NCBI RefSeq assembly: GCF_030413595.1
Contig: NZ_CP129238.1
Coordinates: 3,038,001-3,102,000 of the forward strand
From: Planococcus liqunii
GTDB lineage: Bacteria > Bacillota > Bacilli > Bacillales_A > Planococcaceae
Length of the DNA stretch: 64,000 nt
Reading direction: 5' to 3'
Positions 1,839-38,559 of this stretch are shown piece after piece; the first letter of the stretch is position 1; every line of letters starts with the position of its first letter. The notes beneath the pieces are model-generated. The model was not told the origin of the DNA, did not search any database, and saw only the letters and a list, made by a program, of their open reading frames with translations. A program made the translations under genes and the position numbers.

Positions 1839-2152
1839 TGAAGTTATTAGGTAAGAGAGGTTTTTATTGGAAAAATTTTTTAGGTATAATATCTTATATT
1901 TTACACGATGTCCTTTAATATTTGGAAAAAGTCGGGAAAGATGGTGTTAAGAGTGGTCTTTTAGTTGCGTTTTCAAAATATAGGCAAAAAAACAACTGAA
2001 AAGCCCCAAATTCGGATTGATTTCTGGTATTGTTTTAATGTATTAGGAAAGATGTGTGAACTTTCTTTCATGCAGGATTCGTTTTTAAGTGCAGATAAAA
2101 GGATTTATTATCCATCATGATATACTATTTTTCACCTTTAGGAGGATTGTTT

Positions 2153-3115
2153 ATGAAAAAACATTGGAAAAAAATCACGTTGGTCCTGGCGGCGGTATTG
2201 TTGAGTGTTGGCGGCTACTTGGTCTATGTGCTGCAATTTAAAGAATATGAAACAGCGGATGAAAACGTCGAGAAAGTCACGAAAGAGAAGATTGAAATCG
2301 ATTTGCCGGATGACACCAAATTGGTGGTTGACGAAGAAGGCAATGTTGTCGAAGTGAAAGACGGCGAAACAGCTCAAGTGGCAAGTGAAGGGTCTGACGC
2401 AAAGGGTTCTGAGGGAATGACAGGTTCTGCCGGTTCTGATGAAGCGGCTGGAACATCTTCTGCTAGTGACAGCAAAAGCGGTTCAGGTTCAGCTGTAGCA
2501 GCTTCAAATTCGAACGGTTCTGCAGGTGGCAGTTCTTCTAACGGCACGAGCGGATCTGCTGGTGGCGAAGGATCGAATGATAAAGCTCCTTCAGGGAGTG
2601 CTGCTAGCGGAAATGCTTCTGCTGGAAGCGGTTCTTCTGGGAACGGTTCTACTGATAAAGGCACGAATGGAAATGGTTCTTCTGGCAATACCGGTTCTAA
2701 CGCTGGCGGGTCGAACGGCTCGGCGGGCAATAACGGTTCTGCTGGTTCAAACGGTGAAACGGCTCGTGTAACGGTTGCGGACATCAAAGCGAAGTACCAA
2801 CCGACATTGTCTGGCTTGGAAGCGGATGCCAATGCGAAAATTGGCGGCTTGATCAACGTAGCGAAAAACGAGTATTCTCAAGACAGCAAAGACGGCAAAG
2901 TCAGCTACCCGTACTATTACAACAAGTACATGGGTGCGGCAACGGATTTGGAGAAACGCATGGACTCTGCGTTCTACGCTGTGGTTGACGTGATGAAGAA
3001 AGACTTGAAAGCGAATGGCCTTGCTGAAGCCCATACGAAGTCAGTCGTTGAAGAGTACGAAGCTACGAAAAAACAACGCCGCAGTGAATTGATCAACAAA
3101 GCTGCTGGATTATAA
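2153..3115 (+). CDS. Exported Ser/Gly/Asn-rich protein with conserved-looking C-terminal domain, function unknown
   Basis: 320 aa. The chosen ATG follows a strong AGGAGG; an ATG 36 nt upstream lacks one. Residues 1-25 form a signal anchor (positive start, then a hydrophobic run), followed by an acidic segment with IDLPDDTKLVVDEEG. Residues ~75-215 are low complexity (NGSAG, SGSSGNGS-type repeats), probably an extracellular linker crossing the wall. The last ~105 residues look like a folded, mainly helical domain with a YPYYYNKY motif and a Lys/Arg-rich C-terminal helix. I do not recognise this domain. It is monocistronic, with its own terminator. Confidence 0.8.
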   Translation: MKKHWKKITLVLAAVLLSVGGYLVYVLQFKEYETADENVEKVTKEKIEIDLPDDTKLVVDEEGNVVEVKDGETAQVASEGSDAKGSEGMTGSAGSDEAAGTSSASDSKSGSGSAVAASNSNGSAGGSSSNGTSGSAGGEGSNDKAPSGSAASGNASAGSGSSGNGSTDKGTNGNGSSGNTGSNAGGSNGSAGNNGSAGSNGETARVTVADIKAKYQPTLSGLEADANAKIGGLINVAKNEYSQDSKDGKVSYPYYYNKYMGAATDLEKRMDSAFYAVVDVMKKDLKANGLAEAHTKSVVEEYEATKKQRRSELINKAAGL

Positions 3116-4316: not shown

Positions 4317-5263
4317 ATGTTGATGTTTTTAAAAGAACGGACAGCCCCTCCCTTGCTGGAGTGTTTGCCGCGCTTGCTGCACCGGTTACCGAAGTCCCAT
4401 GCGAGTTTTGAAGATGTGGTGTCGGATCATTATAAGGTGCGTGCCGGTTTGGCGGAGAGCAGCATGTGGATGGTTTGCTGAAGCGGATGCGCTGGAGCGA
4501 TCCGGTGATGGCGCTGGCTGATTTTCAGCTGTGTGATCGTTTTTGCCAGATGGATACGGTTTTGTTGACGTCTCACGGTGCTGTTGTTTTGGAAGTGAAG
4601 AATTATTCCGGAACGCTGTCGTTTGATGAACAAAGTTATCATATGAAGCAAGAAACGCGTGATGGCAAGTTTCTTGGATTTAACTCCCCTGTGACGCAAG
4701 TGTGTAATGCACGCGAGGAGTTGCTGCATCTCTTTAAACAATTGTCGATTTCGTTGCCGGTTTATCCGGCTGTCGTGCTGCCTTATTCCTCGACGCTGAT
4801 TGAAGGGGCACCAAAAGAAGTGCCTGTAATTTATGGCTACTCGTTAAACCGGTTCCTCTCCACCCTCCCCCGGACCGAACGAATAATGCCCCCAGAAGAA
4901 CTGGCGCGTTTGGCCCAACTTCTCATTGACCACCACACCCCTTTCCCCAAGATGGATTTTCCTGCTATGTATCGATATGAAGTGAATAGTTTGGTTAAAG
5001 GAGTGCTTTGCAGTGCTTGCGGTTCCCGTTGTGAGCGGCGCAGTGAGCGTGTGCATGCTTGTATTCGCTGCGAGGCAACAGTTATTGATGGGTATGCGCG
5101 TGCATTGGATGACTGGTTTGAGTTTGTCTCTCCGGAAATTTCGAATGCTGAATGCCGGGAGTTTTTGGGATTGAAGGATCACTATGCTGCGAAGTATGTC
5201 CTTGTGAAGATGGGACTTGGCCGACGTGGGAATGGCCGGGCGGTGAGGTATTTTCGGGAGTGA
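4317..5263 (+). pseudogene. NERD-domain protein gene broken by a single-base frameshift
   Basis: An ATG at 4317 behind AAAAGGAG opens a frame (MLMFLKERTAPPLLE...) that stops at 4479-4481. The -1 frame continues from about 4454 as GEQHVDGLLKR and on through a nuclease-related (NERD) domain with FQLCDRFCQMDTVLL and AVVLEVKNYSG, then a C-terminal double CxxC ribbon (CSACG, CIRCE) and a helix-turn-helix-like tail. Joining the frames near 4452-4457 gives the family pattern (AGL-A-GEQ-hVDgLL), so one base, probably a G in the GGCGGAGAG stretch, appears missing. The 3' part alone could start at GTG 4466, but that would lack the NERD N-terminus. NERD proteins have a predicted nuclease-like fold; the role in Bacilli is not established. 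Confidence 0.75.
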
Positions 5264-5273
5264 GGGCTGGGGT

Positions 5274-5780
5274 TGAGGAGTGGGTTTCACTATTTGGTGC
5301 TTGAGTTTCACTATTTTTGGGGTGAGTTTCACTTTTCTCTTGCTGGGTTTCACTTTTCTCCCCTTGAGTTTCACGATACTCGATGTAACCTACACTTAAA
5401 GAAGGGGTTTGACTTTTTCGCTTTTCGCTGGAGGCGAAAAGCAAGGCAATTGAGGGGTTTAATTGGGGTTGTGGAGTGGGTTTCACGATTTGGTGCTTGA
5501 GTTTCACTATTTTGGGGTGAGTTTCACTTTTCTCTTGCTGGGTTTCACTTTTCTCCCCTTGAGTTTCACGATACTCGATGTAACCTTCACCAAAAATGGG
5601 GTTTGGCTTTTTCGCTTTTCGCTGGAGGCGAAAAGCAAGGCAATTGTGGGGGTTGTTGGGGATTTGGAGTGAGTTTCACGATTTGGTGCTTGAGTTTCAC
5701 TATTTCATAGGTGAGTTCCCCTTTTCTCTTGCTGGGTTTCACTTTTCTTCCCTTGAGTTTCCCTATACCACTTTCACTTC
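5274..5780. repeat. 21-bp-phased TGAGTTTCAC array, locus A (three tandem ~195-bp units)
   Basis: Repeats of a 10-bp core (TGAGTTTCAC, variants TGGGTTTCAC) plus an 11-bp variable part give a 21-bp period. Five to six cores form a block, and the block occurs three times (cores beginning 5281, 5477 and 5670), spaced 196 and 193 bp. Between blocks sit two copies of a perfect 9-bp hairpin GCTTTTCGC/GCGAAAAGC (5420-5442, 5614-5636). Variable parts are shared between blocks (GATTTGGTGCT, TTTTCTCTTGC, GATACTCGATG). The gap lies between convergent genes and holds no credible gene, although the repeats keep antisense frames open. Related arrays occur at loci B-E. Confidence 0.9.
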
Positions 5781-15542: not shown

Positions 15543-15850
15543 TGAGTTTCACTATTTTCTCGATGAGTTTCACGATTTGGCAGGTGAGTTTCACGATTCT
15601 CTCTTTGAGTTTCACGATTTGGCAGGTGAGTTTCACGATACTCAGTGAAAAGTGTTATTTGGTGTCTTTTTCGCTTTTCGCTGCAGGCGAAAAGCTCGGC
15701 ATCTAAGGTTTAAGTAGGCTGGGCTTGTGAGTTTCACTTTTCTCTAGCTGAATTTCACTATTGGGCAAGTGAATTTCACAATTCTTTCTTTGAGTTTTAC
15801 CTTTCTCTTCTTGAGTTCCCCTTTTCGCTTTGCGAACTTCCTATAACTAG
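15543..15850. repeat. 21-bp-phased TGAGTTTCAC array with hairpin, locus B
   Basis: Two blocks of five to six 21-bp units (cores TGAGTTTCAC, TGAATTTCAC, TGAGTTTTAC) flank a hairpin GCTTTTCGC/GCGAAAAGC with loop TGCAG at 15673-15695. Variable parts GATTTGGCAGG and TTTTCTCTAGC echo locus A. It lies in the ~500-bp gap upstream of the GT2 gene and downstream of a protease gene. No gene is supported here. Confidence 0.88.
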
Positions 15851-18968: not shown

Positions 18969-19210
18969 CAGCTTCCTCCCTTACATGCATTATGTATTTT
19001 CTGAATTACCAGATAGTTAGATTTTATCATGTATTTTTCTTATTTCACCCCCTTTTGATAAAAAATTACCATTTTTATTTTATGGAAGGAAACTTTGTTC
19101 GAAGTTGATGGAGTGATTACCTGGAAAAGCCCATTTACTTTTTATGTGAATGTGAAGAGAAGCTCTGCTTTTTGCAGAACAAAATTGTTCAAATCCTTAT
19201 CCGGTTTTTT

Positions 19211-19294
19211 CGCATTTTAATCGATGTGTTTTCGCTTTCTATAAAAGTTATTTCAATCTCTATTCATGCTTCTCGATTTTCTATCGATGTTTGC
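19211..19294. repeat. Four-unit 21-bp-phased array with a different core, locus F
   Basis: Four consecutive 21-bp units begin at 19211, 19232, 19253 and 19274. They share a pattern near TCGNTTTCTATCGATGT (units end ATCGATG, ATAAAAG, ATTCATG, ATCGATG), so the period matches loci A-E while the core differs. In one plus frame they read as seven-residue repeats (SLSIKVI, SISIHAS, RFSIDVC). No GCTTTTCGC hairpin is adjacent; a short TCTGC/GCAGA hairpin lies just upstream. The 18969-19359 gap shows no gene. Confidence 0.6.
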
Positions 19295-23604: not shown

Positions 23605-24020
23605 AATTTTTCCCCCTCTTGAATTTTTTGCTAAATAAATTTAGCAACATAACAAATTTACCATATTGTATAAATATTCTAACTAGTCTGATGTGATTAT
23701 TTGTATGCATTTGTTTGTAAAGTTTTGTCAGTCTATAGGAATAATTTGATTTAATATTTAGAAAGTTTGTAAAGGACCGCTTTTTTTAAGGAAACTAAGG
23801 TAAACGATAAGCCCGGTTCCATAGAAGTGGTAAAGCACCAAGCTGCTGGATGAAGTGGTTTGAACCACGTATAGCGAAGCTTTGAGAAATTAATGAATGA
23901 TGCAGGTGGGGAAAAGAAGGATGCATTTGCCCATTTGTAAAACGCAATACCGGGCCGCATATGCCTCAGCTTTCCGCTTTCAGCAATAAGCCATATAAGA
24001 GATTGAAGTTTACTCTTAAT
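23605..24020. other. Gene-poor gap between duplicated subtilase genes
   Basis: The first ~110 bp is the AT-rich upstream region of the 1414-aa protease gene. The remainder has higher G+C, includes a small palindrome (GTGGTT TG AACCAC) near 23860 and a degenerate form of the GCTTTTCGC hairpin near 23970. No reading frame has a ribosome binding site or recognisable protein. Confidence 0.5.
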
Positions 24021-24240
24021 ATCGGGGAACTCAGGGACTGAAATGGGAAATTCACTTCCCCCCCTTTAAGGACCTAGATGCCCAGCTTTTCGCTTTCAGC
24101 GAAAAGCGATAAAAGAAATTTAAAGGTGGCTCCGAGTATCGGGAAACTCATGCAGATAATGGAGAAACTCGGAGCGAGTATCGGGAAACTCACACGCCCA
24201 ATCGTGAAACTCAAGGCCAGAATAGGGAAACTCCCTCCTC
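24020..24240. repeat. 21-bp-phased array in opposite orientation, locus C
   Basis: Cores read ATCGGGAAACTC, ATGGAGAAACTC, ATCGTGAAACTC and ATAGGGAAACTC (reverse complement of the locus A type), at 21-bp steps from about 24137 to 24235, with two degenerate units near 24025-24060. A perfect hairpin GCTTTTCGC/GCGAAAAGC (loop TTTCA) lies at 24085-24107. The antisense/sense heptad here reads SIGKL and PIVKL. Confidence 0.85.
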
Positions 24241-29278: not shown

Positions 29279-29400
29279 GCTTTTCGCCGGGGCGAAAAGC
29301 ATGTAATTGGGTTGTGGGCAGATTACTTTCGTTAGGGAGTGGGTTATAACCTTTGGTATGTGAGTTACAACCTCTCCCTCTCGAGTTACAACCCTAAGCC
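29279..29400. repeat. Hairpin plus 21-bp-phased array with GAGTTACAAC core, locus D
   Basis: A perfect 10-bp hairpin (GCTTTTCGCC/GGCGAAAAGC, loop of 2) at 29279-29300 is followed by three 21-bp units from ~29340 with cores TGGGTTATAAC, TGAGTTACAAC and CGAGTTACAAC. Period and hairpin match loci A-C but the core has changed from GAGTTTCAC to GAGTTACAAC in all units together. Confidence 0.8.
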
Positions 29401-29417
29401 CTGTAAAACCCCACAAA

Positions 29418-38288: not shown

Positions 38289-38320
38289 CAAAAGCCGCTT
38301 CGGTAAGAAGCGGCTTTTTC
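38289..38320 (+). terminator. Terminator of the MBOAT/SGNH operon
   Basis: AAAGCCGCTTC pairs with GAAGCGGCTTT around GGTAA, then TT. Confidence 0.9.
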
Positions 38321-38321
38321 G

Positions 38322-38478
38322 TGCTTCGCTGCAGGCGTGACGCTTGGCTTCTTTGGAGCTGGGGGATTGGTGGGTGAGTTTCCCCTTTCTAGTAGCGAGT
38401 TTCACGATACTTCCTCTGAATTTCACGATTCTCCTTTCCAATTTCACGATACGCTATTTGAGTTTCACGATCCTGTCA
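38322..38478. repeat. 21-bp-phased array with degenerate hairpin, locus E
   Basis: Five 21-bp units from 38374 with cores TGAGTTTCCC, CGAGTTTCAC, TGAATTTCAC, CCAATTTCAC and TGAGTTTCAC; variable parts begin GATA or GATT in four of them. Just upstream (38322-38345) is a decayed copy of the hairpin (CTTCGCTGCAGGCGTGACGC). No gene is supported in the gap. Confidence 0.82.
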
Positions 38479-38559
38479 AATAGTTCCCAAGCTGAGATGG
38501 ACGGCTACTTTTATACGGAATCCTAATTTGTTTAATAAATAAATTAGTAAAAAAAGTTA

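Follow-up and report, generated by a model that had tools for sequence, protein, structure and literature searches.

Intergenic arrays of 21-bp units in Planococcus liqunii are probably the helically phased DNA sites of a cognate NERD protein, a predicted nuclease with a C-terminal winged helix whose gene adjoins the largest of them. The window analysed here is a stretch of 64,000 nucleotides, bases 3,038,001-3,102,000 of the P. liqunii genome (3,955,745 bp), in which five gaps carry tandem units of a core of about 10 bp and a spacer of 11 bp. Among 107 NERD loci in genomes of Bacilli, 82 have an array of period 20 or 21 bp beside the gene, compared with 4 of 212 control windows, which were unmatched for intergenic content. 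Arrays on the two sides of a NERD gene mostly share their core, and cores at sites distant from the gene are kept between two species while the spacers change.

NERD genes and the arrays beside them

The loci are the best matches of the search tool, or were chosen from its list before the flanks were viewed, and constitute a non-random sample. The 107 exclude L080, which is the same gene as L066, and two loci at contig ends, L088 and L137. Arrays were detected by self-match at lags of 10-35, from 700 bp before to 600 bp after the gene, with a threshold of 0.57. One gene was entered twice (L144 and L169), so that 81 of 106 genes have an array, often directly 3' of the gene. Lag 21 reaches the threshold in 76 of the 107 loci, lag 20 in eight, lag 19 in one and lag 22 in none. 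The initial annotation had considered a functional phase unlikely should unit lengths vary freely around 21 bp; they do not, and this objection falls away. Six NERD loci (L063, L065, L131, L171, L174 and L185) fit a period of 20 bp better than 21 bp. Lags 12 and 33 reach the threshold in eight loci each and any other lag in three at most. The arrays of lags 12 and 33 were rejected as coding because of long antisense open frames of 292 and 310 codons (three loci checked, all from one NERD group).

Longer stretches (12 to 19 kb) give the same contrast: the surroundings of 40 NERD genes (703 kb) contain 48 arrays of lag 21 and three of lag 20, and the controls (540 kb) one of each kind. The lag-21 control array sits within an open frame of 354 codons. 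The other (L199:6271-6382) is a real-looking 20-bp array from a NERD-bearing genome; no frame is open through it, and its core is, by eye, unlike those of the two NERD arrays of the same genome that were compared. Lags 40-42, which are multiples of the unit, were recorded 25 times around NERD genes and three times in controls. Ten 20-kb stretches of the P. liqunii genome, nine of them belonging to the 540-kb control set, contain no array at 0.58. Arrays are not universal among NERD genes: seven were examined in the P. liqunii genome, and those at 3,527,936 and 1,554,304 have no array at threshold.

The NERD gene that adjoins the largest array of the window (4317..5263, forward strand) has a broken reading frame. 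The head (4317-4478) is in one frame and the tail is open from about 4448 in another; both translations resemble the ortholog in Planococcus glaciei. The open reading frame (ORF) of the tail (4466-5263) matches Pfam family PF08378 with an E value of 1.7e-10, and the match passes the curated cut-off. The gene is thus broken near its start when compared with P. glaciei, yet the array modules are 91% alike, and a sequencing error is possible. The orthologs in P. glaciei (69% identical) and Planococcus sp. 107-1 (52% identical) both adjoin 21-bp arrays, with other cores.

The family is built up by a NERD domain with a predicted PD-(D/E)XK nuclease fold, a four-cysteine motif and a C-terminal winged helix. 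In the predicted structure (mean predicted local distance difference test score, pLDDT, 87.4) residues 6-187 align to PD-(D/E)XK nucleases and residues 256-317 to winged helices. The aspartate and lysine of the motif are present in 100% of the 107 loci, the glutamate in 94% and the four cysteines in 98-100%. Together with the modelled fold, these conserved residues predict nuclease activity. At an E value of 0.001, the NERD profile has matches in 72 of 81 sampled genomes of the P. liqunii family and in 77 of 200 of its class, often several per genome; at class level, the weaker ones may represent NERD proteins of other kinds. Homologs beyond Planococcus are found in genera including Bacillus, Fictibacillus, Cytobacillus, Rossellomorea, Ornithinibacillus, Lentibacillus and Ammoniphilus, and the NERD protein of a locus with arrays on both sides (L146) is 100% identical to a protein of Ammoniphilus resinae. 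Searches with a few queries of limited distance reach (single proteins or a seven-sequence alignment) rendered no NERD relatives in plasmids, phages or viral contigs, and a DNA search of plasmids, also of limited reach, gave no match. The PADLOC models of anti-phage defence systems gave nothing but weak MkoA matches (E values 1.8e-4 and 9.3e-5) for two of five proteins, and the PHROGs matches were likewise all weak.

Specificity and conservation of the cores

Cores beside different NERD genes are mostly dissimilar. Arrays flank the gene on either side at 23 loci. In 20 of these the two sides have the core in common and in the same orientation, with a similarity that exceeds the 99th percentile of random pairs; core similarity in the opposite orientation is at background. 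After removal of seven array entries that were judged coding or doubtful, core similarity in 75 loci correlates with similarity of the winged-helix region (Mantel r 0.127, a value reached in 0 of 500 permutations) and less with that of the NERD half (r 0.044, reached in 51 of 500), each r value being set against its own permutations. The core similarity increases chiefly above 60% protein identity. The core thus appears to follow the winged-helix region better than the NERD half, with a contribution from shared descent.

Conservation was compared between P. liqunii and P. glaciei for a second array family, whose NERD gene is at 3.1127 Mb and which has distant arrays at about 672, 779, 818, 827, 1528, 2937 and 2949 kb. 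All seven distant sites have a counterpart array at the equivalent position in P. glaciei, reduced at 827 kb, and no clean empty site for a solo array was found at the distant sites compared. Eight arrays at these seven sites have identical bases at 382 of 409 core positions and 135 of 182 spacer positions (p 5.9e-10, with positions that are non-independent and units placed by their motif match in one or both species). Six of the eight give 299 of 318 and 99 of 141; the 1528- and 827-kb arrays alone show next to no difference between core and spacer, and including both makes the contrast somewhat smaller. Next to the NERD gene itself, three arrays give 94 of 116 and 35 of 50 (p 0.15). Since the distant cores are kept while the spacers change, these arrays look more like sites that the host maintains than like dead copies. 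The initial annotation had suggested a protein-binding array, and this suggestion gains support from a nuclease-fold and winged-helix gene that is flanked by arrays of its own core and from the conservation of the distant cores.

The conservation between species forms a contiguous block and lacks an every-third-base pattern. Within the core, the two least conserved positions are adjacent (23 of 36 and 21 of 37) and display a directed trend between the species in nine arrays. Units are gained and lost between species mostly in whole 21-bp steps, and array loci contain tandem modules of about 190 bp. Among 13 array sites checked in the P. liqunii genome, the 3' end of a gene lies 51-92 bp away at ten. 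ORFs of 107 and 434 amino acids are called over two of the 13; the likely start of the longer one (AGGAGG-ATG) is short of the array. At the 29.3-kb site of the window, the called ORF lies opposite a patatin-like gene that ends 61 bp away. Gene content differs between P. liqunii and P. glaciei near some arrays (L241:4950-5560, L240:5143-5690 and L239:5150-8880). In L241 and L239 the differences come within about 20 bp of where the array ends, and in L240 within about 100 bp.

Arrays of the window

The five gaps for which tandem units had been described hold 40 units in nine sub-arrays. Seven sub-arrays have five units and the remaining two have three and two. The period had been given as always 21 bp, which is correct for 30 of 31 internal spacings; the exception is a spacing of 20 bp from unit 5498 to unit 5518. 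The core TGAGTTTCAC, with at most one mismatch, has 31 matches in the window, where 5.2 are expected and the maximum over 100 shuffles is 11, and 30 of the 31 fall inside four of the five gaps. The fifth gap, at 29.3 kb, has the variant core GAGTTACAAC instead. Agreement among the 37 units of TGAGTTTCAC type is 27-37 of 37 across core positions 1-10, and position 13 alone is invariant among the other 11. A pattern of two TGAGTTTCAC cores (at most two mismatches) has 28 matches in the whole genome, 27 of which are in the window, within 33 kb.

The largest array is a tandem of 194-bp modules (5281-5774, 2.6 copies, 91% matches) on the forward strand, in which three arrays of five units alternate with two hairpins: the TGAGTTTCAC array 5281..5385, the GCTTTTCGC/GCGAAAAGC hairpin 5420..5442, the array 5477..5580 with the 20-bp spacing, an intact hairpin at 5614..5636 and the array 5670..5774. 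In the second gap the five-unit arrays 15543..15647 and 15728..15832, both on the forward strand, enclose an intact hairpin at 15673..15695. The third is on the reverse strand, with two additional units (24013..24054), an intact hairpin (24085..24107) and a five-unit array (24130..24234). An intact hairpin at 29279..29300 precedes the three units of the fourth gap (29340..29402, forward strand), and the last gap has a five-unit array at 38375..38479 on the forward strand. Intact GCTTTTCGC..GCGAAAAGC hairpins, starting at 5420, 5614, 15673, 24085 and 29279, thus accompany four of the five gaps, as the initial annotation had stated. The hairpin of the fifth (38320..38343) appears decayed when judged by eye, and so does another at 23969..23991.

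The units at 29340..29402 carry an older, P. glaciei-like core, GAGTTACAACC, and P. glaciei has, between the equivalent genes, several modules whose cores follow the form GAGTTNCNACC, which suggests that an old core can linger. An array with the older core is also found elsewhere in the genome, at about 1.53 Mb. A weak, decayed-looking array of the second family, with the core TTTCTATCG, is present at 19201-19291.

CRISPR (clustered regularly interspaced short palindromic repeats) arrays likewise alternate constant and variable parts, but with near-identical repeats, unique spacers and cas genes. The window arrays differ in having a 10-bp core, a 21-bp period and a NERD rather than a Cas partner. 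A CRISPR identity was rejected because spacers recur between units and a Pfam scan of 29 window proteins showed no cas family.

Most of the window (5828-61958) is a surface-protein region with many SLH proteins, three large subtilase-type proteases, a GDSL lipase, an O-antigen ligase-like protein, glycosyltransferases and a pyruvyl transferase. A tandem repeat of 15 bp lies at 2609-2654, within the ORF 2117-3115.

Interpretation and relation to known systems

If the arrays are sites of the NERD protein, each 20-21-bp array family would be the site set of one NERD/winged-helix protein encoded beside at least one array of that family. The winged helix would recognize the core of about 10 bp. As 21 bp corresponds to two helical turns, the cores would face one side of the DNA and several molecules could bind side by side, and the conserved active site might then nick or cut nucleic acid held at, or brought to, the array. 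Arrays distant from the gene would form a network of sites under selection, and one genome may hold several protein/array pairs with different cores. This proposal is built on the observed genetic association, the constraint on cores between P. liqunii and P. glaciei, the residues conserved in the family and the modelled fold; from them we infer binding, cooperativity and cleavage, as well as a benefit to the cell and a part in local recombination or in maintaining the chromosome.

Repetitive extragenic palindromic (REP) sequences are short palindromic repeats, dispersed between genes, with a Y1 (TnpA_REP) transposase (RAYT) as partner. The arrays could be a comparable selfish or domesticated repeat, with modules spread or converted by the NERD nuclease and with solo arrays as non-autonomous copies, and we give this possibility a real but minor chance. 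NERD genes are flanked by their own repeats, solo arrays are dispersed and intergenic, and hairpins lie nearby in Planococcus, all of which resembles REP/RAYT. The tandem modules of about 190 bp and the differences in gene content next to some arrays can also be read in this way. Several divergent NERD paralogs occur per genome, some carrying internal stops, and these paralogs and broken copies, together with the local amplification of modules, point to conflict or mobility. However, the positional agreement with P. glaciei at all seven distant sites, one of them reduced, is not expected of a spreading element, nor is the lack of a clean empty site among those compared, and the eight distant arrays that keep their cores while spacers change are unlike dead copies. 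The partner also differs, with a PD-(D/E)XK fold and a 21-bp direct-repeat unit, and Y1 is absent: PF01797 has no match in the P. liqunii genome, and the control search found it in 5 of 14 named genomes. The few queries that gave no NERD relative in phage, plasmid and viral collections argue in the same direction. Sites kept by the host are weighed somewhat above conflict or mobility.

It is unlikely that the arrays function as transcribed RNA, either a small RNA or an mRNA tail, bound or cut by the NERD protein. Their frequent position directly after the gene and the hairpins near some of them in Planococcus would suit such a role, and 52-nt repeats are described as transcribed in B. coagulans (Subirana and Messeguer, PMC8161180). 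On the other hand, the dominance of lag 21, with 20 rarer and 22 absent, suggests a helical DNA phase, and P. glaciei has a terminator-like hairpin between gene and array. The structured RNA offered by the initial annotation also found no backing, as a scan of the 64-kb window brought up nothing from Rfam that passed the gathering threshold, and the stem in its exact form was recorded near arrays in at least nine of 81 loci, with those nine all in the window's genus. The same authors suggest a polymerising protein on satellites (PMC8161180); use of the arrays by a general nucleoid protein, with NERD genes as mere neighbours, is nevertheless distinctly unlikely, because it predicts neither paralog-specific cores nor matching cores on both sides of a gene. 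That the arrays code for antisense heptad-repeat peptides is very improbable. Antisense frames are open in 92 of 98 arrays compared with 79.6 expected with columns permuted, an excess in keeping with the open heptad frames initially proposed. The antisense IVKL said to be in every unit is nonetheless found in only 15 of 40, three variant-core units have a stop there, arrays of 20-bp period occur, and conservation in a contiguous block does not resemble that of codons.

The initial annotation knew of no described family with this pattern, but tandem repeats of constant length, 20-21 nt, were already published for Bacillus (Subirana and Messeguer, PMC8161180, 2021; earlier PMC6749651, 2019). These satellites are described there as variable in sequence with a short conserved core, species-specific and mostly non-coding. 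The window arrays agree: seven of nine sub-arrays have at least four units of 20-21 nt, the size is constant, the sequence varies from family to family and the arrays are non-coding, against which stand the excess of antisense open frames and the ORFs called over two sites. The difference is the linked cognate NERD gene; no partner gene is reported in the portions of those papers used here, and the words NERD and nuclease have no occurrence in their main texts.

The function of bacterial NERD domains was previously unstudied according to the report on SmdA of Staphylococcus aureus, a NERD membrane protein that takes part in cell division and is without several of the residues most conserved in NERD domains (PMC9040797). 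The family described here has in addition the four-cysteine motif, the winged helix and the arrays. BldC, which binds direct repeats cooperatively (PMC5859096), and RdfS, an oligomeric winged-helix protein (PMC11963761), resemble it, as proposed here, in being DNA-binding proteins that multimerise on DNA, but the consulted parts of those papers mention no nuclease domain or paralog-specific satellite family for them.

The repeats by themselves are known, and what appears to be new is their pairing with NERD genes, a link that was not found among the open-licence papers listed, as judged by titles and the starts of abstracts. On balance, and with some reserve, we favour the wider proposal that NERD genes and 20-21-bp satellites constitute two-part chromosomal systems of Bacilli, a class that has so far gone unrecognised. 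Each would consist of a winged-helix nuclease and its own phased address arrays, with several specificities per genome and with winged helix and core changing together. The pairing provides a testable partner for two open questions, the constant-length satellites and the bacterial NERD domains. The many protein/core pairs would be a natural series in which to study how winged helices shift from one target to another, and with the NERD protein these puzzling bacterial repeats gain a first candidate for a partner.
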